Source of the DNA: a virus
IMG/VR virus record: IMGVR_UViG_3300033146_007470
Span: 1-53,938 of that record
DNA: 53,938 bases
Reading direction: 5' to 3' (one strand)
Under the pieces are notes generated by a model. That model was not told the origin of the DNA. It saw only the letters and a list, made by a program, of their open reading frames with translations, and searched no databases. Of this stretch, positions 2,707-53,856 are shown piece by piece; the stretch's first letter is position 1; the number at the start of each line of letters is the position of its first letter. A program made the translations under genes and the position numbers.

Positions 2707-3152
2707 ATAAAGGTCGTTTCGGATCTTTCTTTCGGGAAAAGTATAGTACATAGTAATATGTATAAAGGGGTAAAAGAGTGACGTCTCCCACCAATTTTAT
2801 TATTGGCACATCGAAGCAAGCTGACTTTCCAATGATTTCGCTTCCACGCGGAATTTTTAGAGACATTAGAGAAATGATAAGATGAAATTGTGGCCGACGG
2901 TGGCAATGAATTCTTCTCCGCAAGAGATAGTTTCTATGCAAAACTAATTATTTATGAGAAAGAACAGTAGTTATTTGGTGTGAGCTTTTGCGAGTTAGTG
3001 CTAGATAGCAGTTTAATAGTTTATGGTAAAAACATAGACTTGAAAAACTATAAAGTAGGCGGCAGCTGAAATATATGAGAGGTTGCGCATTTGGTAGGAC
3101 AAAATCTTATTAAACGCATGGTCAAGCACCTCTTGGTCAGAGCGAGAGCTCA

Positions 3153-3226
3153 TTTAATTTTGTTCAGATGGTTGAACAATTTGCATCTCAAGCAAACGAT
3201 CATGGGTTCAATTCCCATAATTAAAC
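3153..3226 (+). tRNA. tRNA-Glu (anticodon CTC)
   Basis: Acceptor TTTAATT/AATTAAA, D-stem GTTC/GAAC, anticodon stem TTTGC/GCAAA around loop ATCTCAA (CTC), T-arm ATGGG-TTCAATT-CCCAT. The all-A/T acceptor with a T1-A72 pair is unusual. It is embedded in the large structured RNA region; tRNA inside a giant phage RNA has been reported for GOLLD. Confidence 0.78.
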
Positions 3227-3557
3227 ACAAGCAAAAGCCTTGGCCGGTACTTGATGAAAATAGCTTAATCCTTCACTCCTCGGAGAATGAAGGTCCTGGA
3301 AGTTCGCAAGACGGAAGGAATTGATTGGAAGATGCATCTAGTCACTTAGCGGTGATTAACAATTCGCAAGATTGGGAGTAATTCTGATAGTTGAGTAATT
3401 AAGTATGACGAGAGCACAGCATCTCTCTAAAAAATGCAGCTATGATAGGAGACACTCTAGAGAGTGTGGAAAAGTTCTTAACATGATGGTTAGCACCTGA
3501 TTGATACGGGAACGAAGGTTTTATCGTAGAAAGTATATTCTCAACTTTCTTTATTTT

Positions 3558-3595: not shown

Positions 3596-3634
3596 GTTAA
3601 GATAATATTAATGGGTTATTTGCGGAGGTTGGTA

Positions 3635-5773
3635 ATGAATAAAAATATACTTCTTGTTGAAGACGAATTTATAATAGCTATAGGAAAGCAACAAGAGCTC
3701 GAGAACTATGGATATGTAGTTCAATATGTAAATACTGGAGAAAAAGCTGTTTCTATAGTAAATGAAAATACTGATATTGGTCTTATTCTTATGGATATCG
3801 ACTTAGGTAAAGGGATTGATGGAACTGAAGCAGCTGCACTTATACTAAAGGAGCACAATATACCTATTGTATTTATGTCTTCCCATACTGAATCCGAAAT
3901 TATTGAAAAGACTGAGAAAATAACCTCTTATGGATATGTAGTAAAAAATTCAAGCATAACAGTTTTAGACGCATCAATTAAGATGGCATTAAAACTATAT
4001 AATTCTTACGAAAAAATTAATAAAAGCGAAAACAAATTACGTCAAATTATTGATCTTGTTCCACATTTTATTTTTGTAAAAGATGAAACAGGTAAATTTG
4101 AAATTGTAAATAAAGCGACTGCAAAAGCTTTTGGAACCACTGTGGAAGACCTTACTGGAAGAAGAGATTCTGAATTTGTAGCTACAGAAGAAGAGAAAGA
4201 ACGTTTTAGAGCAGATGATCTTGAAGTGATAAATTCAGGTAAAACAAAAGTTATTTCAGAAGAACTAATGACTGATTCAAACAATAATACAATATACCTT
4301 CAAACTACAAAAGTTCCATTTAAATTTTCTTCTTCCGGGTCCCCGTCCGTTTTAGGAGTGGCTGTTGATGTAACAGAACAAAAAGTAAAAGAGAATACTA
4401 TAAAAACATATCAACAACGATTAGCTTTACATATAAATCAAACGCCTTTAGCTGTTATTGATTGGGATTTGGATTTCAATGTTATTTTCTGGAATAAATC
4501 AGCAGAAAAAATATTTGGTTTTACTTCTGAAGAAACATTGGGGAAACATGCTACTGATCTAATAGTCCCTGAAAATGTAAGGGATGAGGTTGACGAGGTG
4601 TGGGCTTCTCTTATTGGAAAAACTGGTGGGGCTCGAAGTACAAACGAAAATATAACAAAAGATGGAAAAATTATTCAATGTGAATGGTATAACACTGCAA
4701 TTATAAATGAAGCAGGAATTGTAATTGGAGTTTCCTCTCTGGTTATGGACATAACCAACCAGAAACACGCGCAATTATCTTTAACTAAAAATAAAAATTT
4801 TATTGATTCAATACTTAAATCAATACATGATCTAATTTTTGTTATTGACATCGATAAAAAATTTACTGCATACCATAATTCTTCAGATTATAAATTATAT
4901 ACTTCTCCTGAAAACTTTATTGGTAAAAGTATTTTTGATGTTCTTCCTGAAGATATTGCCAAGGACACAAATAATGCCATTGATGAAATATTAAAAACAG
5001 GAAAACTTCAAAAATTTAATTATTCGTTACATGTGGATGATGATGATCTTAGATACTATGAATCCAATATAAGTCCAATGTTTGATAGTGACAAAAATAT
5101 TATTTCGTTTGTATCTATAAACAGAAATATAACAGAACGCAAATTGTCAGAGAAAAAGATAGAAAAACAACTACTAGAAAAAGAAATAATTATTAAAGAA
5201 ATTCACCATAGAATTAAAAATAACTTAGCATCTATTGAAAGTTTTATTTCATTGCAAATTGCTAAATCAACTGATTCCAAAGTAATATCAGCTCTACATG
5301 GTATAGCTGGAAGAGTTAATAGTATGACTATATTATATGAGAAACTGCTATTAACTAATGATTGTAGTAAGATACCAGCAAAACAATATTTAACAAGTTT
5401 AATTGATGAATCGATTAGTTTATTTATAAACAAAAATATAAAAATTGAAAGTAATATAGATGATTTTAAACTTGATTGTAAAAAATTAGTTCCTATAGGT
5501 ATTATTACAAATGAACTTTGTATGAATGCAATTAAATACGCGTTTATTGATAAAGACTCCGGACATATAAATATTATTTTAAAAAAAGAAAATCAAAATA
5601 TCACTCTTACTATAACAGATGATGGTATTGGTATACCAAAAAACTTTGATATGAATAATCAAAGTGGTTTTGGTTTGATATTAATTGATTTATATAGTCA
5701 GCAATTAGATGGTGAATTCGAAATAAAACGTGATAATGGAACGAAATGTATTTTTAAATTTAATATAAATTAA
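3635..5773 (+). CDS. Hybrid sensor histidine kinase: REC-PAS-PAS-PAS-HisKA_2-HATPase
   Basis: A 712-residue soluble protein. Residues 1-120 are a receiver domain with acidic pair E9/D10, phospho-acceptor D54 in LILMDIDLG and the conserved Lys in VVKNSS. Three PAS domains follow (about 130-250, 265-385 and 395-510). After them come a HisKA_2 dimerisation helix with H-box KEIHHRIKNNL and an HATPase domain with N-box TNELCMNAIKYAF and G-boxes DDGIGIP and GFGLILI. ATG 3635 has GGAGG at the right spacing; the in-frame ATG 24 bases upstream does not. Such multi-PAS kinases are typical of free-living bacteria, rare in phages and probably host-acquired. Confidence 0.93.
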   Translation: MNKNILLVEDEFIIAIGKQQELENYGYVVQYVNTGEKAVSIVNENTDIGLILMDIDLGKGIDGTEAAALILKEHNIPIVFMSSHTESEIIEKTEKITSYGYVVKNSSITVLDASIKMALKLYNSYEKINKSENKLRQIIDLVPHFIFVKDETGKFEIVNKATAKAFGTTVEDLTGRRDSEFVATEEEKERFRADDLEVINSGKTKVISEELMTDSNNNTIYLQTTKVPFKFSSSGSPSVLGVAVDVTEQKVKENTIKTYQQRLALHINQTPLAVIDWDLDFNVIFWNKSAEKIFGFTSEETLGKHATDLIVPENVRDEVDEVWASLIGKTGGARSTNENITKDGKIIQCEWYNTAIINEAGIVIGVSSLVMDITNQKHAQLSLTKNKNFIDSILKSIHDLIFVIDIDKKFTAYHNSSDYKLYTSPENFIGKSIFDVLPEDIAKDTNNAIDEILKTGKLQKFNYSLHVDDDDLRYYESNISPMFDSDKNIISFVSINRNITERKLSEKKIEKQLLEKEIIIKEIHHRIKNNLASIESFISLQIAKSTDSKVISALHGIAGRVNSMTILYEKLLLTNDCSKIPAKQYLTSLIDESISLFINKNIKIESNIDDFKLDCKKLVPIGIITNELCMNAIKYAFIDKDSGHINIILKKENQNITLTITDDGIGIPKNFDMNNQSGFGLILIDLYSQQLDGEFEIKRDNGTKCIFKFNIN

Positions 5774-5786
5774 GCATATATTATAA
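5771..5786 (+). promoter_or_regulatory. AAGCATA-type motif
   Basis: TAAGCATATATTATA overlaps the kinase stop codon and precedes the macrodomain gene by about 20 bases. Candidate phage promoter, inferred from recurrence. Confidence 0.35.
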
Positions 5787-5804
5787 TATATAAAGAGGGA
5801 TAAT

Positions 5805-6278
5805 ATGATAGTAGACACAGTAAAAGGTGATTTAGTGCAATTAGCACTTAATGGCAAATATGATGCTATAGTTCATGGTTGTAATTGTTTTTGTAAAATG
5901 GGAGCTGGTATAGCAAAACAGATTAAACTTGTCTTCCCGGAAGCATTTATTGCTGATGACAAAACACAAGCTGGTGATAAAGGGAAATTAGGGACTTATA
6001 CATTCGCGAATATTGAATATGAGTATAAAGGTAGAACAGATACGGTTACCATCATAAACGCTTATACTCAATATACGTATAATGCTAAAGATAAACCCGT
6101 TGACTATAATGCAATCAGGAAAGTTTTTACTCTTATTAATAAGGATTATGCAGATATGAATATCGGTATTCCTAAAATTGGTGCTGGTTTAGCTGGCGGA
6201 GATTGGGACAGGATATCAGCCATCATAGATGAGGTGACACCTGATTTAGATGTACATTTAGTAGAATTTAGTAAATAA
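5805..6278 (+). CDS. Macrodomain (ADP-ribose-binding) protein
   Basis: A 157-residue single-domain protein. It has the macrodomain signatures GDLVQ near residue 9, the ADP-ribose loop VHGCNCFCKMGAGIA at about 26-40, IINAYTQY and the second phosphate loop IPKIGAGLAGGDW near 122-134. Phage members act on ADP-ribose-1''-phosphate or related ADP-ribose species. With NadM-Nudix, nicotinamidase and NadE about 43-48 kb downstream, a role in ADP-ribose/NAD+ housekeeping is likely. SD AGAGGG before the ATG. The RNase P RNA follows the stop codon directly. Confidence 0.9.
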   Translation: MIVDTVKGDLVQLALNGKYDAIVHGCNCFCKMGAGIAKQIKLVFPEAFIADDKTQAGDKGKLGTYTFANIEYEYKGRTDTVTIINAYTQYTYNAKDKPVDYNAIRKVFTLINKDYADMNIGIPKIGAGLAGGDWDRISAIIDEVTPDLDVHLVEFSK

Positions 6279-6513
6279 TCATTCTGACCTATCGCAGGTT
6301 TGATATATCAAATTTGAGGAAGCTCAGGACATCCGGACTAACCGAAGGAGATGCAAATCATTGGTACTTCGTAAGATGCAACATAAACAGACTTAGAGTG
6401 AAAGTTCCTCTATAATAGTCGGGTTATGGCAGCTGGAAACAGCCATTCGTAAGAGTGAGACAGATGATAGGTAAGACTTATTAAGTCGAACAGAATCCTG
6501 GCTATAGGAATGA
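6279..6513 (+). ncRNA. rnpB: RNase P RNA (M1-type), phage-encoded
   Basis: The conserved bacterial RNase P RNA elements occur in order. CR-I is TTGAGGAAGCTCAGGACATC. A CR-II/III-like block GAGTGAAAGTTCC precedes GGCAGCTGGAAACAGCC. GTGAGACAGATGATAG matches the GAGTGAG...TAGATGAATG region. CR-V is AACAGAATCCTGGCTATAGG. The ends pair as P1 (TCATT and CCTAT with ATAGG and AATGA). At about 235 bases it is much shorter than cellular RNAs (350-400), so some peripheral helices must be reduced. The RNA would cleave tRNA 5' leaders, fitting the tRNA array around it. No RNase P protein gene is visible, so the host RnpA would be needed. Confidence 0.88.
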
Positions 6514-6520
6514 TTTTTTT

Positions 6521-6546
6521 TAGTCTCCTACGGGAGACTTTTTTTA
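6521..6546 (+). terminator. Rho-independent terminator after RNase P RNA
   Basis: AGTCTCC-TAC-GGGAGACT followed by seven T, a few bases after the P1 helix of the RNase P RNA. Confidence 0.9.
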
Positions 6547-6584
6547 TTCCTAACACATATTTATATAAGGAAAGGAGTATATAA

Positions 6585-7586
6585 ATGGCAAGGATAATAG
6601 TTCCAAAAGAAATATTTGTTGGTCTTCAAGTAAGACAAACACGTGGGAATCAAACATCAGCAGATGGTGAATCTAATGTGGCGTTAGGCTTCGCAACATA
6701 TTTAAATAATAAAGGTCTTCTTCAACATAAAGATACATTTAATAAATGGAGAGATACATCTATCCCTCGTTTTCCTTATGATAATGACCCTATTGTAGGT
6801 ATGAGTGTTCGTGGGAGTGTAGACAGATATAGATCCCACAACAAACTTGTTAGAATTGAGGACCCAAGAGGTTTTCAGCTAGAGATACCTATTGAGAATT
6901 TCATCGAGGTTATATACGAGTGCACTTTAAAAAACGGTGTTATTAAAGATGAGATGGTTTGGGGTTGGGATAACGGGCAGGTAAGACTTTATAAAGTTGG
7001 AGGAGAAAATTATAATCAGGGTATTGCAAATTTTAAATATGACGGGCAAAAAAATATACCTATGAAAACTATAAACTTGGGCGATACCATCCTTCTGGAT
7101 AATGGTGATACTGGTGTATATTACGGTGGGTGGCATATTGTTACTGATCACTTCGGTTGGAATGATTATGCAGCAAATATTAAAATCAAGAAAGTATCTT
7201 CAAAGAGAGTTTTCTTCGTTAAAGTAGATAAGGAGCATGCAACTTTCTATACGTATTCCTCTCTCAAAGTTAAAAATGTAACACCAATAAATGAACCTCT
7301 TAATAAGGGTGATATATTCAATCAATTCACATCTGAAATTAATAAAACGGTAAATTATAATTACAAACGTAGTCTTGCACATATTGAAGCCAAGAAAGAG
7401 AACTATCAATGGCATGACCCTAGATATAAAACACTTTACAATAAATATGGTTTAAATGATGAAGGTAATAATCTAATAGGTGTGGAAGGGTGTATGAGTT
7501 GGAGGGATGGTTTTTCTGATATATCTGCAATAAGTGATAAACCAATTAAAGACGAAATTATATATAATGAAAAAATTATATTTTAA
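6585..7586 (+). CDS. Conserved phage-type hypothetical protein
   Basis: A 333-residue protein with SD AAAGGAG before the ATG. The sequence is globular, mixed alpha/beta and rich in aromatic residues (MVWGWDNGQVRLY, YYGGWHIVTDHFGW), without signal peptide, membrane segment or recognised catalytic motif. It looks like the large hypotheticals of T4-like and jumbo phages, but I cannot assign a family. It stands alone between the RNase P terminator and the STAS gene. Confidence 0.7.
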   Translation: MARIIVPKEIFVGLQVRQTRGNQTSADGESNVALGFATYLNNKGLLQHKDTFNKWRDTSIPRFPYDNDPIVGMSVRGSVDRYRSHNKLVRIEDPRGFQLEIPIENFIEVIYECTLKNGVIKDEMVWGWDNGQVRLYKVGGENYNQGIANFKYDGQKNIPMKTINLGDTILLDNGDTGVYYGGWHIVTDHFGWNDYAANIKIKKVSSKRVFFVKVDKEHATFYTYSSLKVKNVTPINEPLNKGDIFNQFTSEINKTVNYNYKRSLAHIEAKKENYQWHDPRYKTLYNKYGLNDEGNNLIGVEGCMSWRDGFSDISAISDKPIKDEIIYNEKIIF

Positions 7587-7620: not shown

Positions 7621-7660
7621 TGATTTAGTAAAAAGAATACCAATTCCATTGGAGGAAAGT

Positions 7661-8239
7661 GTGATTTCAGATTTTAATGCAGATGAAACTAATCACATTT
7701 TATTTAAATTAGTGCCTGTTGACGAAACATGTATTATAATAAATTTAAAGGGTTTGATAGATACATATAATTCTCACTATTTCACAACTCAAGTAGAGAA
7801 AATAATTAAGGCAGGATATATAAAACTCATATTTAACTTTTATGGAGTAAATTATATGTCTTCTACAGGTATAGGGTCTATGATTGCTATATTAAAAATG
7901 TTGAAAGCTATACATGGAGCTGATATGGTCATGTATAACACTCAACCTAAGATATATGAAGTATTTAGTCTCCTTGGTATGACTGGTTTCTTTAATTTCT
8001 TAGAAGAGGAAGAAGAAGCTTTAGCCTTTTTCAAAACTGAAAAGCCAACTATTAAGAAAGAAGTGCCAAAGATAAAGAAGAAGATATATAGTACTATTGT
8101 TAAAAAACAGGTTGAATTCCCTTTAATAATTACATGTCCTTCTTGTAACAAAAGGATGAGAGCTCCTAAGCCTGGACGTTATAGATGTAAATGCAAAACT
8201 ATTTTGACGATAAATACTACGGGTGAAATAAAAATATAA
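7661..8239 (+). CDS. STAS-domain (anti-sigma-factor antagonist-like) protein with zinc ribbon
   Basis: A 192-residue protein. Residues about 10-115 form a STAS domain: IINLKGLIDTYNS, then the phospho-acceptor helix MSSTGIGSMIA as in SpoIIAA/RsbV. A basic linker follows, then a C-terminal zinc ribbon (CPSCNKRM...YRCKC). The in-frame TTG 7649 overlaps the SD GGAGG; GTG 7661 sits 5 bases after it and is preferred. STAS proteins are Ser-phosphorylated partner switches, so it could titrate a host regulator. It heads a cluster ending in a second histidine kinase. Confidence 0.85.
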   Translation: MISDFNADETNHILFKLVPVDETCIIINLKGLIDTYNSHYFTTQVEKIIKAGYIKLIFNFYGVNYMSSTGIGSMIAILKMLKAIHGADMVMYNTQPKIYEVFSLLGMTGFFNFLEEEEEALAFFKTEKPTIKKEVPKIKKKIYSTIVKKQVEFPLIITCPSCNKRMRAPKPGRYRCKCKTILTINTTGEIKI

Positions 8240-8663: not shown

Positions 8664-9473
8664 ATGGGCAAATTAACATTTAAAATAGTAAAAATATTAA
8701 TAATTCATACGATAATATCTATATTGTTTTCTGTATGGATGCGCTTTTTTCAAAATTACAACAACAATTTAATGTTGTTGCTTATATTTAGAATTAGTTT
8801 CATTATTATTACGACTACAATTATGACTGCAATATTTATGCACGTAATACATAAATACGATACCATAAAAGATTCTCTCTTTAACGAACAAGTTATTCTT
8901 ATAAAGGAAATGAATCATAGAATAAAAAATAATATTAACATCCTTACTAATATTATGGATATAAAAATGATGCTTTATAATGATGAAAATATTAATGTCG
9001 TTTTAACAGATTTAAAAAATAAAGCCTTCCTTATTTCAACAATACACGAAAAGATATATAAATCTTTAGATTTTAAGAGTATAGACTTTGGTTCCTATCT
9101 TAAGGATGTTATTGATTCTTCTAATGAATTAAACAATTCCGAAGTAGATATAACATATAAGATAGATGATATAAAATTGAACACAAAAATCGCGATTAAT
9201 ATTGTTTTAATTATACAAGAATTATTTGTTAATGCTGTAAAACATGGATTTGGGGACAAAAAAGATAAAATATTTGAAATTACATTACAAAAAGATGACT
9301 CTTTATTTCTAACTCTAAAAGATAATGGTACAGGATTTGATATTAGTAAACTGAATAAAGTTGAAATATTTGGTATTGAAATGATAAAATCTATAGTCTC
9401 CCAATATGGCGGAACTATAGATATTGAAAGTTCTATAGATGGAACTACTATAACATTTAACTTAGAGGTATGA
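8664..9473 (+). CDS. Membrane-bound histidine kinase (HisKA_2-type)
   Basis: A 269-residue protein. Two N-terminal transmembrane segments (about 8-25 and 36-62) enclose a very short outer loop with no sensor domain. Then come H-box KEMNHRIKNNINIL near residue 90 and an HATPase domain with N-box IQELFVNAVKHGFG, DNGTGFD and FGIEMIKSI. It is the second kinase of this class in the window; the H-box context matches that of the 3635 gene, suggesting a common origin. The missing sensor domain suggests constitutive signalling or use of a partner. Its stop overlaps ATG 9470. Confidence 0.88.
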   Translation: MGKLTFKIVKILIIHTIISILFSVWMRFFQNYNNNLMLLLIFRISFIIITTTIMTAIFMHVIHKYDTIKDSLFNEQVILIKEMNHRIKNNINILTNIMDIKMMLYNDENINVVLTDLKNKAFLISTIHEKIYKSLDFKSIDFGSYLKDVIDSSNELNNSEVDITYKIDDIKLNTKIAINIVLIIQELFVNAVKHGFGDKKDKIFEITLQKDDSLFLTLKDNGTGFDISKLNKVEIFGIEMIKSIVSQYGGTIDIESSIDGTTITFNLEV

Positions 9474-9481
9474 GGTATATA

Positions 9482-10003
9482 ATGAAAAGAATTTTAATTA
9501 TGATTACAATGTTTGCTATAGTAGCGACATCGGTATTCACACTGAATGATAAAACTATAGGTAGAATAGAAGGCAATGACGGGAAGTATATCAAAGTATA
9601 TATTAATGAGAAGAGTAATATATATTTAGAAACGGATACTAGAAGAACATTCCATTTAAGCGATGGTTCATTAATTAGATTTATTAAATTAGTTAAATTA
9701 AATTTAGAATTAGTTGAAGTAGGAAAATCTAGTGAATTGAAATATAGAAGAGATTCCGGACAGCTATGGGCAGCAGTTCCATCTAACATGTTTGTGCAGT
9801 TTGAATATTATTGTTCCGCAGAAGGATCCAGTACTATAAGCCTTATAATAACTGATTTAATCGGAGAAGAAAGACTCACCTTTAAATCAGATCAAATAGA
9901 AAAATTATTAAGTTTAATAAATGATGGCTTAAATGAAAAAAAAGGTATTATAAGCCAAATAGATAAATTTAATGTCATAGTTGCTAAAGCACAAACATAC
10001 TAA
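9482..10003 (+). CDS. Secreted or periplasmic protein, unknown
   Basis: A 173-residue protein with a signal peptide (MKRILIMITMFAIVATSVF) and no lipobox Cys. The rest is a beta-rich domain. ATG 9482 has GAGGT five bases upstream; ATG 9470 lacks room for an SD. It overlaps nothing but follows the kinase closely, so it could be an exported partner. No family recognised. Confidence 0.7.
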   Translation: MKRILIMITMFAIVATSVFTLNDKTIGRIEGNDGKYIKVYINEKSNIYLETDTRRTFHLSDGSLIRFIKLVKLNLELVEVGKSSELKYRRDSGQLWAAVPSNMFVQFEYYCSAEGSSTISLIITDLIGEERLTFKSDQIEKLLSLINDGLNEKKGIISQIDKFNVIVAKAQTY

Positions 10004-10004
10004 T

Positions 10005-10286
10005 ATGATGATATATGAAATATGTGACAGAGAAGGTGATGATGAATATTTTGAATCCCACCATCTTTTCCCTGGTAAAAAGAGGCGTAAGAAGGCGGGG
10101 CATTTGCAAACTATAGCAGTATGTACAACTTGTGGTGATCAAATACATAATATGTTTGACAATACCACTCTCAGAACAGAATTAAATTCTATTGAAAAGT
10201 TGCAAGAGAAAATGCATACTTATATATCATGGATACGGAAGAGAGAATTATCAGATTCTATATCTATGAAAAAATTAAAAAAATAA
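10005..10286 (+). CDS. Small HNH-like protein
   Basis: A 93-residue protein with ESHHLFPGKKRR, then VCTTCGDQIHNMFDN. The His-His, Cys-x2-Cys and His-Asn pattern matches a compact HNH-nuclease-like family seen in phages and bacteria. ATG 10005 is chosen; the earlier TTG lies in the previous gene. Nuclease activity is not certain. Confidence 0.65.
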   Translation: MMIYEICDREGDDEYFESHHLFPGKKRRKKAGHLQTIAVCTTCGDQIHNMFDNTTLRTELNSIEKLQEKMHTYISWIRKRELSDSISMKKLKK

Positions 10287-28701: not shown

Positions 28702-29024
28702 GTTTTGAAGTAGAAAATTTACACGATTTAACAGCATTTCATGATATAATAGATTTAAGTATTGCTCATGCTAGACATATAATATCTAATTTCAATGACG
28801 TTGCTTCTTATGTTGGTGAAGGACTTACTGATATAAAACATTATATGGATACATGCGATAACAGTTCTACTCTTCTGACTACATTTAAATTAGAAGGAAA
28901 AACTATGTTTGATGTAGTTGAAGTAATAAAAGAGAAGAGAAACTGTTTGTTAATACGAGAAGAATATGTTAAAAATGGAAGACATGGTTTTTACTTTGAT
29001 TACGAATATAAGGATAATGAATGA
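28698..29024 (+). CDS. Hypothetical protein between hpt and purA
   Basis: A 108-residue protein: helical N-terminal half, C-terminal strands (FDVVEVIKEKRNCLLIREEY). Coupled by ATGA overlaps to both hpt and purA, so produced with the purine enzymes, but no family recognised. Confidence 0.6.
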   Translation: MSFEVENLHDLTAFHDIIDLSIAHARHIISNFNDVASYVGEGLTDIKHYMDTCDNSSTLLTTFKLEGKTMFDVVEVIKEKRNCLLIREEYVKNGRHGFYFDYEYKDNE

Positions 29025-30175
29025 AACAAGTAGTAGTTGGAGCTCAATGGGGAGATGAGGGTAAAGGCAAGATTGTAGATTATTTATCTGCAGATGCAGA
29101 TTTGGTAGTACGTTTTTCAGGTGGTGCTAACGCAGGCCATACTATAGTAACCGAAAAAGATACTTTTAAACTCCATCTTATTCCATCAGGTATAGTTTAC
29201 CCTCACACAAAAGTTGTGCTAGGAACAGGAATGGTGATTGATTTTGATGCGTTAAAAATAGAGTTAGATATCCTTACTGAACAAGGAATTGATTGGAGGG
29301 GAAGAATATTTATTTCTGATAGAGCACATGTAGTATTACCTTCATATAAAGAAGAAGATGTGAAAAGAGATAAAGAAAGAGAAAACCCTATTGGTACAAC
29401 TGGTAGAGGGATTGGAATTGCGTATGAGCATAAAGCTGCTAGAATTGGACTTAGAGTTTGTAATATGAAAAAAGAATATCTTTCAGATATACAAATAGTA
29501 AATCTCCCTTATTTTATGCAGGACTATAAAAACAAAAATGTTGTGTTCGAGGGAGCTCAAGGTACTTTATTAGATATTGATGCGGGAACCTACCCTTATG
29601 TATCTTCTGGAAGTGCTATTGGAGCTGGTGCTGCTTCTGGTGGAGGCGTAGGAATTACAGATATTGATAGAGTAATAGGCGTGTTTAAGGCCTATCAATC
29701 AAGAGTTGGTAATGGTCCTTTCCCTACAAAATTTAATGATGATGAATTTGCACAATACATAAGAGATACAGGACGCGAATATGGAGTAACAACTGGAAGG
29801 CCTAGAGACGTAGGTTATCTTGATTTGGTTGCATTGAAATACTCTTGTTTAATTAATGGATTAGATAGTTTAGTTTTAACGCATCTTGATGTATATGATA
29901 ATATGGATGAAATTAAAGTTTGTACTGGATATGAATATATAGAAAAACAAAAAGAGTTTCCCTCCTCTATTGAAATATTAGAAAAAGTACGACCTATATA
30001 TCAAGTGTTTAAAGGATGGAAACAAGATATATCTGGTGTGAAGAAAATAGAAGATCTCCCACTAGAAGCACGGCAATATATAGATTTCATTGAAGAATAT
30101 ACTAGTGTTGAAGTCGGTATAATATCTGTTGGATGTAAGAGAGAACAAACTATAAACAATATCAATCTTTGGTGA
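29021..30175 (+). CDS. purA: Adenylosuccinate synthetase
   Basis: A 384-residue protein. GTP P-loop and catalytic Asp in GAQWGDEGKGKIVDYL at residues 7-22, IMP-binding GGANAGHT with the catalytic His, IGTTGRGIG, FEGAQGTLLDID, and the Asp-binding loop TTGRPRDVGYLD. It joins IMP and aspartate to adenylosuccinate. It lacks about 45 residues of the E. coli enzyme (432), mainly between GLRV and the FEGAQG strand. The QWGDEGKGK Asp is intact, which argues against a PurZ that makes diaminopurine. Confidence 0.94.
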   Translation: MKQVVVGAQWGDEGKGKIVDYLSADADLVVRFSGGANAGHTIVTEKDTFKLHLIPSGIVYPHTKVVLGTGMVIDFDALKIELDILTEQGIDWRGRIFISDRAHVVLPSYKEEDVKRDKERENPIGTTGRGIGIAYEHKAARIGLRVCNMKKEYLSDIQIVNLPYFMQDYKNKNVVFEGAQGTLLDIDAGTYPYVSSGSAIGAGAASGGGVGITDIDRVIGVFKAYQSRVGNGPFPTKFNDDEFAQYIRDTGREYGVTTGRPRDVGYLDLVALKYSCLINGLDSLVLTHLDVYDNMDEIKVCTGYEYIEKQKEFPSSIEILEKVRPIYQVFKGWKQDISGVKKIEDLPLEARQYIDFIEEYTSVEVGIISVGCKREQTINNINLW

Positions 30176-41840: not shown

Positions 41841-43196
41841 ATGAAAGAAATTACATTACCAATTGGCACATTATTTAAATTTATGGAAAGTAAAGGTTTG
41901 AATTTTCCTTTAAACGAAGGCGTTAATAATAAACAAGAAATCAAAATTAAAAATGAAATGGGAATTTGGAGAAATATTCCTGCATTTATAAAAAAACGTG
42001 ATATAATAAATCACATTAAATTTGATAAAACTGAAATTAAATGCGGCTCGAAACATAAAATATGTATAAATAAAAAAACTCTTGAATGTAAATTCGCATC
42101 AAAATTAAAACCCGGTGATATATTAGATTACGGAGATACTTCTTATACTGTTACTGAAAATATCATATACAAAGAAGACTTCGTATATGACTTACAAATA
42201 GATTCTGAAAATCACTTATATCAAACATCAAATGGTTTATTAAACCATAATACAGCCATAACAGAAGGACTTGCCCAGCGTATTGCGGATGGAACTGTTC
42301 CAGATGTACTTAAAGACTATAAAATGTATTCACTCGATATGGGTGGGCTTCTTGCAGGTACAAAATACCGTGGAGACTTTGAAGAGAGAATTAAGAAAAT
42401 TATTGATGAGATTGAAGCTCTTCCTAAATCTATTCTCTTCATTGATGAAGTACATAACATCATTGGTGCTGGTCAAACTGGAAATGGCACAATGGATGCG
42501 TCAAACATTCTTAAGCCCGCCCTTCAGGCTGGGACATTGAAATGCATCGGTTCTACAACTTATGATGAGTTTAAAAAACACTTTGAGAAAGATGGAGCAC
42601 TTGCTCGTCGTTTCCAGAAGATTGATATTGGTGAACCATCAGAAGATGAAACATATGACATCCTCGTTGGCCTTAAAGAAAGTTATGAGACTTTCCATAA
42701 TGTAACATATACTGATGATGCTCTTAAATCTATTGCTCATCTTTCAGCCCTCTATATCAACGATAGACATCTACCAGATAAAGCTATCGATGTAATGGAT
42801 GAAATTGGTGCGCTTTTAAGAATGCGTAATTTTAAAGAAGATGAAGATAAAGAAGAATCAATATCACTCCTTGTAACTGAAACTGATGTTGAGAACGTAG
42901 TTTCTAAAATTGCTAAAATTCCAGAAAAAACTGTATCAACAGATGAGACCGCTAAGCTTAAAGACCTTGCTCCAACCCTGAAACAATTAGTTTTTGGTCA
43001 AGATGAAGCTGTAGATTTAGTTGTTCAATCTATTAAACGTTCCCGTGCAGGTTTTAGAAAAGCAAATAAACCCGTTACCAATCTTCTTTTCGCAGGCAAA
43101 ACTGGTGTTGGTAAGTGTTTACATAAAGACGAAGAACTCGAAGTTATGATTTCTGACGAGTTATATAAAAAAATTATAGAGATTCGTTCAAGATAG
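41841..43196 (+). CDS. clpA: Intein C fragment 1 - ClpA middle part - intein N fragment 2
   Basis: A 451-residue protein. Residues 1-137 are an intein C fragment ending HLYQTSNGLLNHN (block F and the His-Asn end). Residues 138-425 are ClpA from TAITEGLAQRIADG (completing Walker A 1) through Walker B LFIDEVHNIIGAG and the D1 domain to the second Walker A LLFAGKTGVGK. From Cys426 (nt 43116) a second intein N fragment CLHKDEELEVMISDELYKKI runs to the stop. It needs protein splicing at both ends to yield functional ClpA. SD AAGGAG. Confidence 0.94.
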   Translation: MKEITLPIGTLFKFMESKGLNFPLNEGVNNKQEIKIKNEMGIWRNIPAFIKKRDIINHIKFDKTEIKCGSKHKICINKKTLECKFASKLKPGDILDYGDTSYTVTENIIYKEDFVYDLQIDSENHLYQTSNGLLNHNTAITEGLAQRIADGTVPDVLKDYKMYSLDMGGLLAGTKYRGDFEERIKKIIDEIEALPKSILFIDEVHNIIGAGQTGNGTMDASNILKPALQAGTLKCIGSTTYDEFKKHFEKDGALARRFQKIDIGEPSEDETYDILVGLKESYETFHNVTYTDDALKSIAHLSALYINDRHLPDKAIDVMDEIGALLRMRNFKEDEDKEESISLLVTETDVENVVSKIAKIPEKTVSTDETAKLKDLAPTLKQLVFGQDEAVDLVVQSIKRSRAGFRKANKPVTNLLFAGKTGVGKCLHKDEELEVMISDELYKKIIEIRSR

Positions 43197-44142
43197 TATT
43201 TATAGCAGCGATACATTTATTTATATTATATTCAGGTGTGTCGCTGCTCCATATAGTTATTACGTTAAATCCGTTATCTTTCGCAAATTTATTTTTTTGT
43301 TTATCTAATTCGTAATGATAGTCAGCCGATTCATTAGTATAACAATGTTGCCAATTATTCCATTCTTGTTCGTTTAATATATTTTTATTTGGATGGATAT
43401 GGCAACCATTATATTCAATAATTAAATTAAGTTCTAAAATTGTAAAATCATAAAAATATAATTTTTTATAATTTTTATTATATAATGAAAATTCATGGTT
43501 GTTGTCTATGCCGACAAATATTGATAAGTTATAATTTTGTAAATATTTTATTAATTCGTTAAATACGATGAGAGACTGTTTACTTGCTGTAGTAGGACTA
43601 GGTCCTGAGTTCAAAAGATTAACACGATTTTGTAAATACTTATCTAAACCGTGCTTTTTAATAAATTTTGCTTTAGGCAACCCTTTGGATTTGTTCACTT
43701 TATTCATATCATTATTTTTATATAATGATTTTTGCCATTTATCATTTCTTTCGTTCATTTTATTATTAGCTTCTTCTATTCCGTATTTTTGTATTAACTT
43801 TTTCATATTGTTAGGGTTTTCTCTCCGCTTTTTGGCGAAGGCATTTGCATTTATTGTTTGTAATTTTGATATTTTATTATTTGCTTCATTCTGTGTATAT
43901 CCCCGCTTAACCCAAAAATTTGTTCTATATCTAGATTTTTCGCCTATTAAAGAATAACAAAATGTTTTAAATTTTTTAAATCCTATTTTATCTGTATTAT
44001 TGTAAAACAAATTTAATTCTTGCAGCACATTATTTATAGATTTATAATTAAAACTATTTTTTAAATATTTATCCATAAACGCTATAAATTCGTCTATATT
44101 ATAACATTTAAAATATTCTTTATGCTTATATGTTATCAACAT
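43174..44142 (-). CDS. Vsr-like homing endonuclease inside split intein 2
   Basis: A 322-residue intact protein on the minus strand. Nuclease motifs KLYFYDFTILELNLIIEYNG and CHIHPNKNILNEQEW (EDxHD/Vsr-like); N-terminal DNA-binding region with YTQNEANNKISKLQ. It is a paralogue of the endonuclease in split intein 1, so each element carries its own specific nuclease. It overlaps the end of intein N fragment 2 by 23 bases, tail to tail. Confidence 0.88.
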   Translation of the reverse strand: MLITYKHKEYFKCYNIDEFIAFMDKYLKNSFNYKSINNVLQELNLFYNNTDKIGFKKFKTFCYSLIGEKSRYRTNFWVKRGYTQNEANNKISKLQTINANAFAKKRRENPNNMKKLIQKYGIEEANNKMNERNDKWQKSLYKNNDMNKVNKSKGLPKAKFIKKHGLDKYLQNRVNLLNSGPSPTTASKQSLIVFNELIKYLQNYNLSIFVGIDNNHEFSLYNKNYKKLYFYDFTILELNLIIEYNGCHIHPNKNILNEQEWNNWQHCYTNESADYHYELDKQKNKFAKDNGFNVITIWSSDTPEYNINKCIAAINTILNESL

Positions 44143-44230
44143 ATGACCTTCTTATTTGTTTCGGTATTGGTATTTCCCCATACCCGTTTATCTTTATATA
44201 ATATTGATTTTTATATCATTATTTATGAAG

Positions 44231-44248
44231 ATAAAGCATATATAATAA
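44231..44248 (+). promoter_or_regulatory. AAGCATA-type motif
   Basis: ATAAAGCATATATAATAA, about 23 bases before the third clpA fragment, at the same relative place as the copy before fragment 2. Confidence 0.4.
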
Positions 44249-44270
44249 TAAGAAAATAAGGAGTTTATAT

Positions 44271-45458
44271 ATGGTAAAGGAAAAAATAAAAATTGGTGAA
44301 TTATTTGAAGCCATTTCAGAATTAGAAAATGTTAATTTTGAGGTAGGCAAAGAGATATTTCAAAATAATGAAATACAAATTAAAGATGAATTTGGCGATT
44401 ATAAAAATGTTCCTGGATTAATTGTTAAACAAGATTATATAAGAACAATAAAATTCGATAATAATGATGTTTTAAGATGTGCAAAAAAACATAAAATATG
44501 TATAGATCCTAAATCTGGCAAATGTATTTTAGCTGAAAATTTAAATGTAGGAGACAGTATTATCAATGCTTTCGGCATTGTTTTGACTGTCACATCTAAT
44601 ATAGTTTCGTCTAATATAGAAAATGTATATGATTTAGAAATAAATACAGATAAACATTTATATCAAACTTCAAATGGTATTGTGCATCATAATACTTTTT
44701 TGGTAAACAAATTAGCTGATACCATGGGACTTGCTTTTCATAGATTTGATATGTCTGAATACCAGGAGAAACATTCTGTTGCACGTCTTGTTGGTACTCC
44801 TCCAGGATATGTTGGATATGACGAAGGTGGTCTTCTTACTGATGCAATTAGAAAAGATCCTCATTGTGTTCTTCTCCTTGATGAAATTGAGAAAGCACAC
44901 GGTGATGTTTATAATATGCTTCTACAAATTATGGATTATGCAACTCTCACAGATAATCAGGGTCGAAAAGCAGATTTTAGAAATGTCATTATCATAATGA
45001 CATCTAACGCGGGAGCTAGAAATATTGGTTCTAAGGGAATTGGTTTTGGTTCAGTAAAACAAGGTGGAGAAGCAGTTGACGCTGCAGTAAAGAAAACGTT
45101 CACTCCTGAGTTTTTAAATCGTCTTGATAAAATTGTTACTTTCAACGATCTTGATAAAATTGTAATACGAGAAATTGTAAAAGCTGAAATTAATGAGTTT
45201 GAAACCATGTTAACATCTCACGAAGTATCTCTTCGAGTAACTGATGAAGCTTTAGATTGGTTTGTAGAAAATGGTTACTCTGAGGAATTTGGTGCAAGGC
45301 CAATTGCTCGACTTGTCGATGAGAAGATTAAAGATATCTTCGTCGATGAAGTATTATTTGGTGACCTCAAAAGCGGAGGAATTGCTGAAATCTCCGTCTT
45401 AGATAATGAAATTAAGATCACCACTCTTGATTTCCAACTAGAGAACGCTATCGCGTAA
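44271..45458 (+). CDS. clpA: Intein C fragment 2 fused to ClpA C-terminal part
   Basis: A 395-residue protein. Residues 1-141 are intein C fragment 2, ending HLYQTSNGIVHHN and similar in sequence to C fragment 1. From Thr142 (nt 44694) ClpA continues TFLVNKLADTMGL, GTPPGYVGYDEGG (pore-loop motif), Walker B LLLDEIEKAH, sensor NVIIIMTSNAG and C-domain EFGARPIARLVDEKIKD. The three exteins total about 754 residues, the normal ClpA length, so nothing is missing. SD AGGAG. A terminator follows. Confidence 0.94.
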   Translation: MVKEKIKIGELFEAISELENVNFEVGKEIFQNNEIQIKDEFGDYKNVPGLIVKQDYIRTIKFDNNDVLRCAKKHKICIDPKSGKCILAENLNVGDSIINAFGIVLTVTSNIVSSNIENVYDLEINTDKHLYQTSNGIVHHNTFLVNKLADTMGLAFHRFDMSEYQEKHSVARLVGTPPGYVGYDEGGLLTDAIRKDPHCVLLLDEIEKAHGDVYNMLLQIMDYATLTDNQGRKADFRNVIIIMTSNAGARNIGSKGIGFGSVKQGGEAVDAAVKKTFTPEFLNRLDKIVTFNDLDKIVIREIVKAEINEFETMLTSHEVSLRVTDEALDWFVENGYSEEFGARPIARLVDEKIKDIFVDEVLFGDLKSGGIAEISVLDNEIKITTLDFQLENAIA

Positions 45459-48710: not shown

Positions 48711-49736
48711 ATGAAAGCAGATTTTTGCGTCTATATTGGACGCTTTCAACCTTTTACAGTTGCCCATAAAGAGATGGTGGATAGAGCATTAGAGGAAGCT
48801 GAAAAACTTATTATTATTGTCGGTTCCGACAAAGCATCACAATCAATTAGAAATCCCTTTACAACTGCAGAACGCATAGATATGATTTTCTCCGTCTACC
48901 CAAATAATAGAGATAGAATACTCATTCTCCCAATTCAAGACTCAGCATACAATTTTACTGCATGGATTGCTGAAGTTCAAAGGAAGATTAATACCTTCGT
49001 TCGGAAGGAAGATAGTGTAAAACTTATTGGTCACTTCAAAGACGACACCTCTTACTACCTCAAACATTTCCCCCAGTGGAAACTTATATCTATGCATTCT
49101 CTTTGCGGTGGACTCTCAGCTACTGAAATCAGAGATAAACTGTTTACCACCAGTTATAAAACTAGCTGGAAGAGTGATGTTCCTCCTGCTGTTGATGCTT
49201 TCATTAGCAATTGGATAACTGAGCAGAACTACCGATTTGAAAACCTAAAATCTGAATATGCCTTCCTCCAGAATTATAAAGATAGGTGGAAGGATTCTCC
49301 CTTCCCTCCAACATTCGTAACTACAGATGCTATTGTATTCTCCCACTCCCATATCCTACTTATTAAGAGAGGACGAAATCCTGGTAAAGGTCAATTCGCT
49401 CTCCCTGGTGGTTTCCTTGATCAACAAGAAACCATTGAACAGGGCTGTATAAGAGAATTGAAGGAAGAGACAAAGATTGATGTTGCTATCCCAATCCTTA
49501 AGAATTCAATAAAGGATGTGCATGTATTTGATTCCCCATGGAGAGACCCAAGAGGAAGAACAATAACACATGCACATCTTATAGACCTCAATCTTAAGGA
49601 TCTTCCTAAGGTGAAAGCGGCAGATGATGCAGCTGAAGTTATGTGGGTTCCAGTTGGCGAGTTATCAAATATGGAAGGTATGTTTTTTAATGACCATCTC
49701 CAAATTATTAAATACTTCCTTGGTAGGAGTATGTAA
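48711..49736 (+). CDS. nadM: Bifunctional NMN/NaMN adenylyltransferase - Nudix hydrolase (NadM-Nudix)
   Basis: A 341-residue protein. The N-terminal nucleotidyltransferase (about 1-175) has YIGRFQPFTVAHKEMVDRAL (HxxH-type motif), RNPFTTAERIDMI and GLSATEIRDKL (the ISGTxxR-equivalent). The C-terminal Nudix domain (about 200-341) has the complete Nudix box GGFLDQQETIEQGCIRELKE plus ET. Cellular homologues (cyanobacteria, Francisella) make NAD+ or NaAD from NMN or NaMN and hydrolyse ADP-ribose. SD GAGGAG. Works with nicotinamidase and NadE downstream. Confidence 0.95.
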   Translation: MKADFCVYIGRFQPFTVAHKEMVDRALEEAEKLIIIVGSDKASQSIRNPFTTAERIDMIFSVYPNNRDRILILPIQDSAYNFTAWIAEVQRKINTFVRKEDSVKLIGHFKDDTSYYLKHFPQWKLISMHSLCGGLSATEIRDKLFTTSYKTSWKSDVPPAVDAFISNWITEQNYRFENLKSEYAFLQNYKDRWKDSPFPPTFVTTDAIVFSHSHILLIKRGRNPGKGQFALPGGFLDQQETIEQGCIRELKEETKIDVAIPILKNSIKDVHVFDSPWRDPRGRTITHAHLIDLNLKDLPKVKAADDAAEVMWVPVGELSNMEGMFFNDHLQIIKYFLGRSM

Positions 49737-53055: not shown

Positions 53056-53856
53056 ATGATAAAAGTTGAAGAAATAATAGAATTAATAACTAAAGAGATC
53101 AAAAGCTTTACAGATATAGCAACAATTGGAATGTCAGGTGGAGCAGATAGTACTTGTGTAGCCGTTCTTAGTACCCTTGCTTTGGGGAAGGAGAATGTTT
53201 ATGGATATGGTTTTCCATATGATAGAAATGATATTCGCAAATTCAATTCCAGATCTGCGCGTACTGCTAAACAGTTAGGTATAAAATACGAGCAGCTTGG
53301 TATTGGTAACGCAGTTGATGTTACTGCCAAAGATATGGACCCGGAAGGATATTTCGGTATCTCACCCCTCAATCTTGGTAATATTAAATCAAGAATGAGA
53401 ATGATCTATCTCTATTCCTTAAATGCACGAGTTGCGGAGAAGACTGGGAAGAGATGCAGAGTTATAGGAACTGGTAATCTCTCTGAAGATTTTATCGGAT
53501 ATGACACCAAGGGTGGAGACGCCTTAGCTGACATCTTCCCTCTTGGAGAGTTGTATAAGAGTGAAGTATATCAACTTCTCGATTACTTTGTTGAGAAGGG
53601 ATATATTGCGGAAGACATGGTTGATAGAGTCCCTTCTGCTGGCCTTGAGAATGGTCAAACTGACGAAGAAGATTTAGGCTTCTCATATGATGAGATGGAA
53701 CCGGCTGTAAGATTTTGTCTTGCAAATTATGATAATATGAAAAATGTTGATAAAACTAAGATAATTGAATTTGTATGGGCTAGGCATATTGCTAATAAAC
53801 ATAAACATGAAGCTCCAAGAATAATATCTCTTACAAAATCTAAATTAGGGAGATAA
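53056..53856 (+). CDS. nadE: NH3-dependent NAD synthetase
   Basis: A 266-residue protein with PP-loop IGMSGGADSTCVAVLST at about residues 24-40, SRMRMIYLYSLNARVAEKTG, GTGNLSEDFIGYDTKGGD and the FPLGELYKSEVYQL segment. It amidates nicotinate adenine dinucleotide to NAD+ using ammonia and ATP. No glutaminase domain. It has its own TTGGAC promoter. With NadM and PncA it covers three of the four deamidated salvage steps. Confidence 0.95.
   Translation: MIKVEEIIELITKEIKSFTDIATIGMSGGADSTCVAVLSTLALGKENVYGYGFPYDRNDIRKFNSRSARTAKQLGIKYEQLGIGNAVDVTAKDMDPEGYFGISPLNLGNIKSRMRMIYLYSLNARVAEKTGKRCRVIGTGNLSEDFIGYDTKGGDALADIFPLGELYKSEVYQLLDYFVEKGYIAEDMVDRVPSAGLENGQTDEEDLGFSYDEMEPAVRFCLANYDNMKNVDKTKIIEFVWARHIANKHKHEAPRIISLTKSKLGR

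Follow-up and report, generated by a model that had tools for sequence, protein, structure and literature searches.

The window, i.e. the whole stretch of DNA analysed here (53,938 nucleotides; positions 1 to 53,938 of IMG/VR virus record IMGVR_UViG_3300033146_007470), encodes an RNase P RNA of bacterial lineage at 6277-6515 on the plus strand, as shown by homology, structure and covariation. This phage-encoded RNA is the catalytic domain of RNase P RNA, the tRNA-trimming ribozyme, with a mini-hairpin where the specificity (S) domain, which normally holds the tRNA, would sit, and it belongs to a phage family that is a real, widespread and apparently undescribed RNase P RNA variant, the members of which are mostly missed by standard RNA databases.

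When the locus was searched with Rfam (4227 families), no RNase P match was obtained, either at the gathering score or with the looser limit of E<=10; similarly, the archaeal and type T RNase P models had no match to the locus at E<=10 (4227 families), and RF00010 and RF00011 had none across the whole record. An earlier note on this DNA had claimed a phage-encoded, naturally minimised RNase P RNA with its own terminator, and had named the lack of a significant Rfam covariance score as grounds for refuting that claim. The class A model RF00010 has 367 positions and a gathering score of 100 bits, which the window RNA fails, probably because the S domain is missing and full-length models expect one. 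Relatives of the window RNA pass this cut-off: L075 scores 189 bits (E 2.6e-59), and L069, L072, L068 and L071, which are full-length, pass too, as does L079, while other loci sharing the CR-I/CR-V signature fail. Because full-length phage relatives with the same signature pass, we suspect a limit of the Rfam models.

Two covariance models were made. For R2, 12 RNase P RNAs encoded on bacterial chromosomes were stripped of the S domain, and only the remaining catalytic domains went into the model; in what we take as the decisive test, it matched the window at 6275-6517 with 42.8 bits (E 5.6e-13), its sole match at E<=10 in 53,938 bases, and recovered 22 of the 36 small phage relatives. R1, the phage family model built from 35 small relatives with the window left out, matched at 6275-6516 with 125.3 bits (E 8.5e-35), and nowhere else in the window was its E better than 5. 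Moreover, R1 matched the RF00010-positive phage RNAs, a chromosomal rnpB from a Flavobacteriales bin (E 3e-17, with collinear blocks; RF00010 209.7 bits) and the 3' end of E. coli rnpB (E 4.5e-5). In total, the sole R2 match together with the R1 match exclude chance, and the claim of the earlier note stands on the covariance models and on the covariation, the tRNA linkage and the absence of RnpA described below, despite the missing Rfam score.

The gene lies between an ORF ending at 6278 and an ORF starting at 6585; the former (5805-6278) encodes a Macro domain protein, and a search of viral contigs gave no relatives for the protein encoded by the latter (6585-7586). All parts of the gene are on the plus strand. 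The RNA is 239 nt from P1 to P1' and is closed by P1, the 5' strand of which (6277-6285) forms nine pairs with 6507-6515. The P2 5' strand CCUAUC (6288-6293) pairs with 6466-6471, and the P3 hairpin (6295-6316; 6295-6303 with 6308-6316) is present in the minimum free energy fold. CR-I, GAGGAAGCUCAGGA (6316-6329), holds the P4 5' strand (6321-6323 and 6325-6329), which forms eight of eight pairs with 6496-6503 around the bulged U6324. P5 (6330-6333 with 6375-6378) and a closing mini-domain of ~40 nt in the position of S-domain P7-P14 occupy 6330-6378. The P6 pseudoknot between J5/7 and L17, a class A feature, is formed by GGACU (6335-6339) and AGUUC in the P16/17 loop (6403-6407), with five pairs of which one is G-U. 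J5/15, P15, P16 and L15 follow at 6379-6430, with P15 at 6382-6384/6426-6428 (CAU/AUG), P16 at 6391-6398/6408-6419 and the L15 GGU, which in bacteria binds the CCA of tRNA, at 6422-6424. A P18-like GAAA hairpin and a second GNRA hairpin (6432-6457) are missing from the most compact of the relatives. The 3' part (6458-6503) contains CR-IV, the P2 3' strand, a P19-like hairpin (6475-6487) and CR-V, ACAGAAUCCUGGCU, with the P4 3' strand. An intrinsic terminator with a 7-bp stem and a U tail (6522-6545) is the sole terminator-like site within 5700-6700, where shuffles expect 0.3; a promoter search gave matches no better than chance.

The conserved blocks GAGGAAGCUCAGGA, GCAACAUAAACAG, CGGGUUAUGGC, AGACAGAUGAUAGG and ACAGAAUCCUGGCU thus occur in order, closed by the 9-bp P1 and followed by the terminator, and the canonical order of P1, P2, P3, P5 and P15 is met. 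Only 41 nt separate the P5 strands, compared with about 150 nt cut from E. coli rnpB to leave its catalytic domain, and for this reason we read the RNA as a catalytic domain with a mini-hairpin, in which P1-P6, P15-P16, the L15 GGU and the bulged U of P4 are retained. Of the claims in the earlier note, those on which motifs are present and in what order, on the pairing of P1 and on the position of the terminator held, and its length of about 235 bases held approximately. Its statement that all key conserved stretches of rnpB are present held in part: the S-domain blocks P7-P14 are missing, and the apparent CR-II/III is J5/15, P15-P16 and L15 of the catalytic domain. The block GGCAGCUGGAAACAGCC was at first taken as CR-III/P14; this assignment was rejected after comparison with relatives, which places it in L15 and P18.

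Covariation was scored in a 35-sequence alignment made with MAFFT by sequence, with the structure, including the P4 and P6 pseudoknots, written from one row. In the named structure, 88.1% of cells were paired, compared with 32-41% when partners were slid and 63.5% in shuffles; moreover, 496 cells were changed on both sides, compared with 172 expected in shuffles. Because the alignment was made by sequence and the structure was taken from one row, the slide control is biased toward the named structure, whereas the double changes are not so biased. Covariation was seen in P1, P2, P4, P5, P6, P15 and P16. In P1, all 10 pairs had double-sided changes across the 35 relatives, and in P15 three of three pairs covaried. 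Paired cells in relatives amounted to 98% in P2, 99% in P4, 95% in P5 and 95% in P15, each with covariation. In P6, all eight of eight columns changed on both sides, and only 60% of cells were paired because the length of P6 varies among relatives. The mini-hairpin (6343-6347/6367-6371) and P5 both pair in the window, and both covary in relatives.

Relatives were collected from viral contigs by pattern scans. An initial pattern scan was discarded, as none of its 63 matches had a paired P4. Scan 1, with the CR-V pattern of the window, gave 35 loci, most of which have a matching CR-I 145-300 nt upstream. Scan 2, with CR-I, 40-70 nt and the J5/15 pattern, gave 47 viral loci, mostly true small forms, and 19 matches in 84,980 cellular genomes, only one of which (L155) is real; L155 lies on an 11-kb contig of a Flavobacteriales bin that is probably phage. 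Scan 3 gave 42 further confirmed loci. The family comprises about 105 IMG/VR contigs that match R1 at E<1e-5 or were in the R1 building set; some are near-identical to one another, and many are 80-480 kb and many others shorter fragments. Blastn with six queries found no match in 50,697 phage records, and so no cultured phage with the gene was found; similarly, R1 and RF00010 found none in ten cultured large phages (XacN1, G, CcrColossus, KVP40, Atu_ph07, T5, SCTP-2, RaK2, T4 and phiR1-37).

Family members range from full class A size down to ~160 nt. Four RNAs of 161-176 nt (L253 at 9882-10042, L256, L243 and L261) have P1-P5 and CR-V and no recognisable J5/15-P15 block; the smallest, L253 and L256, span 161 nt and have no recognisable P15. 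RNAs of the L253 type may be the smallest RNase P-like RNAs.

Several loci have further features. In L129 (1499-2318), and also in L136 and L137, the RNase P RNA gene is split in the P16/P17 region by an ORF (1575-2210 on the minus strand in L129) with a GIY-YIG motif (GVYAIRS..GKLYIGS), and the next ORF is HNH-endonuclease-like. Homing elements thus appear to invade phage RNase P RNA genes, an inference made from sequence alone. In L078 (16-340), a mini S-domain insertion keeps an open frame (72 aa, 53-271 on the minus strand) through the RNase P RNA. In L081 (3202-3530), the complete RNase P RNA is immediately preceded by another copy that comprises just the 5' part and has a more bacterial-like CR-I (GAGGAAAGUCGGGUC). 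L070 and L077 have tmRNA genes at the same loci as the RNase P RNA, the tmRNA of L070 being permuted.

In a catalytic-domain tree, 45 phage sequences were split from 15 cellular ones with a support of 99/96, the full-length phage forms were nearest to cells, and the phage forms lacking the S domain were compatible with a single clade (AU p 0.56). The tree is limited in that cells are represented only by E. coli and Bacteroidota, the RNA is short and the phage members were fished by motif. In the phage group of the window, the two P4 pairs flanking the bulged U are G-C and C-G or U-G, where the sampled cellular sequences have A-U and G-C; such compensated rewiring of the active-site helix is unusual. 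Further phage copies, found by scanning with a bacterial CR-V pattern, have a canonical P4, and some of them (L213, L225 and L200) lack the S domain. The rewired P4 was therefore rejected as a mark of every S-less phage RNA. These copies also show that S-domain loss and P4 rewiring are separable, and they raise the possibility that the S domain was lost in phages more than once.

The RNase P RNA genes of phages are associated with tRNA genes. Around 53 of these genes, tRNA density was 11.8 per 10 kb, compared with 0.47 around 33 unrelated viral loci (25-fold). A tRNA gene lies within 200 nt of 24 of the 53 genes, many within 20 nt, and in L118 the RNase P RNA is nested between two tRNAs. The window itself has 16 tRNAs according to ARAGORN, so that an earlier count of about twenty roughly held; several pairs are just 4-9 nt apart, none was seen with an encoded CCA, and the RNase P RNA gene is not beside any of them, the nearest upstream tRNA gene ending at 3226. 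No RnpA gene was found in 70 viral records, many of them fragments, while the control search was positive in 10 of 14 known genomes; thus, the earlier observation that no protein subunit is visible held. GOLLD RNA was detected in nine of 48 RNase P RNA-carrying records, including the window, where it lies at 3077-3547 (187.8 bits), 2.7 kb upstream of the RNase P RNA gene, and contains a tRNA-Glu-like gene (3153-3226). In both the window and L081, GOLLD precedes the RNase P RNA at a distance of 3-4 kb.

The RNase P RNA gene of the window is flanked by unusual phage signalling genes, i.e. two histidine kinases (HisKA_2, HATPase; 3611-5773, with PAS and receiver domains, and 8664-9473) and a STAS protein (7649-8239). 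The window also encodes an NAD synthase (53056-53856) and a protein of the cytidyltransferase/Nudix type (48711-49736), which resembles nicotinamide-nucleotide adenylyltransferase more weakly; together with the Macro protein, these might be genes of NAD/ADP-ribose metabolism. A protein of the adenylosuccinate synthetase family (29021-30175), for which the best phage family is annotated as 2-amino-type adenylosuccinate synthetase, hints by annotation at modified-base chemistry. Finally, a Clp-type ATPase gene (41841-45458) is divided between two ORFs, which match consecutive segments of phrog_4871 (227-510 and 512-756). The second half has a HINT-like domain ahead of the AAA domain, and the opposite strand carries a 322-aa ORF between the halves; this arrangement may reflect a split intein, as inferred solely from the sequence.

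We consider it likely that the window RNA matures phage tRNAs together with host RnpA; its transcription, RnpA binding and cleavage are inferred. The reduced RNA would fold as P1-P6 plus P15-P16, L15 and the P4/J5-15 core would bind the acceptor stem and 3' CCA of pre-tRNA, and in phage tRNA transcripts the RNA would cut 5' leaders and the spacers between genes. Bacterial RnpA binds the catalytic domain. Because the phages lack an RnpA gene and RnpA binds this domain, a hybrid enzyme, with host RnpA as the putative protein partner of the phage RNA, is the simplest working model. The P6 pseudoknot, which is longer in many members, would probably supply the folding support that normally comes from the S domain. 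The catalytic (C) domain of E. coli alone cleaves model substrates, small hairpins included, in trans with or without the C5 protein, and requires a P6 mimic or pairing while P18 is dispensable (PMC5839562). The phage layout fits these requirements, having no S domain, a retained and often longer P6 and a variable P18. Removal of the S domain slows the E. coli RNA about 120-fold and the B. subtilis RNA about 25,000-fold (PMC5839562), and for this reason the activity of the phage RNA may be weak without unknown help. The missing Rfam score, the lack of an encoded CCA in the window tRNAs and the position of the gene away from any tRNA gene also count against a role in tRNA maturation, whereas the close spacing of tRNA pairs in the window counts in its favour. 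Why phages keep the gene can only be inferred; the earlier suggestion that the ribozyme serves when the host RNA is attacked or scarce is no more than a suggestion, and catalytic activity itself is an inference.

Three alternatives were considered. First, without elbow recognition the RNA might have altered targets, i.e. act not on ordinary pre-tRNAs but on short acceptor-like hairpins, for instance host RNAs or tRNAs linked to GOLLD. The GOLLD RNAs in nine of the 48 records, the window among them, and the cleavage of small model hairpins by the E. coli C domain in vitro (PMC5839562) are in favour of this alternative; however, 39 of the 48 records have no GOLLD match and the L15 CCA contact is kept, and we regard it as unlikely. 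Second, the RNA might act as a decoy, inhibiting or retuning host RNase P by titration of host RnpA or of tRNA precursors, without cutting. Consistently, with no phage RnpA the host protein must be shared, and S-domain loss lowers the catalytic efficiency of known enzymes (PMC5839562). However, all or almost all relatives retain P4 with its bulged U, CR-V and the L15 GGU with a covarying P15, as catalysis predicts, and the genes are associated with tRNA genes. With the active-site helix and the CCA-binding loop retained and the helices around them covarying, there is very little to recommend a decoy. Third, a decaying host rnpB copy or assembly contamination, suggested by a few matches at contig edges that resemble host genes (e.g. 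L199 and L207), is practically ruled out by the internal position and intact pairing of the window copy, the about 105 viral contigs, the strong covariation and the phage/cell split at 99/96 support.

Compared with known systems, the window RNA shares P1-P6, P15-P16, the L15 GGU, CR-I, CR-IV, CR-V and the topology with bacterial class A RNA (RF00010), and models match in both directions; it differs in lacking P7-P14, in the rewired P4 beside the bulged U, in its length (239 nt versus 300-400) and in being encoded by a phage genome. Archaeal type T (type P) RNA of Pyrobaculum is also a natural RNase P RNA that has lost almost the entire S domain (PMC4919922 and PMC12974513, describing Lai 2010), but it is archaeal and uses archaeal proteins, and the phage RNA has no Rfam match to it. 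As a relative of bacterial class A, the phage form has lost the S domain independently of type T. The engineered E. coli C domain likewise functions without an S domain, with P6 pairing important and P18 dispensable; unlike this man-made RNA, the phage RNA is natural and covarying, and in many members its P6 is longer. GOLLD and ROOL are also structured phage RNAs in tRNA islands, but they are nanocage RNAs of unrelated structure and unknown function (PMC12286853).

Natural S-less RNase P RNAs were previously reported only from archaea, i.e. Pyrobaculum and relatives (PMC4919922, PMC12974513). The open-licence literature searched did not describe any RNase P RNA encoded by a phage, and a report elsewhere is possible. 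A virus-encoded copy is not mentioned in the RNase P reviews and models consulted (PMC11143913, PMC4919922, PMC12974513); a survey of huge phages names tRNAs, synthetases and tmRNA and not RNase P RNA (PMC7162821), and only tRNAs and one tmRNA were seen when all Rfam models were run on megaphages (PMC8172020).

In a bolder reading, a separate RNase P ribozyme lineage has evolved in phages, many of which are large, ranging from class A size to about 160 nt and possibly including the smallest natural RNase P RNAs known. This lineage would have lost the domain that binds the tRNA elbow and rewired the highly conserved active-site helix P4 through compensatory changes, and it would form with host RnpA a hybrid enzyme dedicated to phage tRNA arrays and perhaps other substrates; taken as one joint claim, this could as easily prove wrong as right. 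The family supplies small ribozymes and is a candidate for addition to Rfam. RNase P is a near-universal ribozyme that has been thought to be cellular. A natural, bacterial-type RNA consisting of the C domain only makes testable the minimum enzyme needed in a cell, the rewiring of P4 and the processing of phage tRNA arrays after host shut-off.
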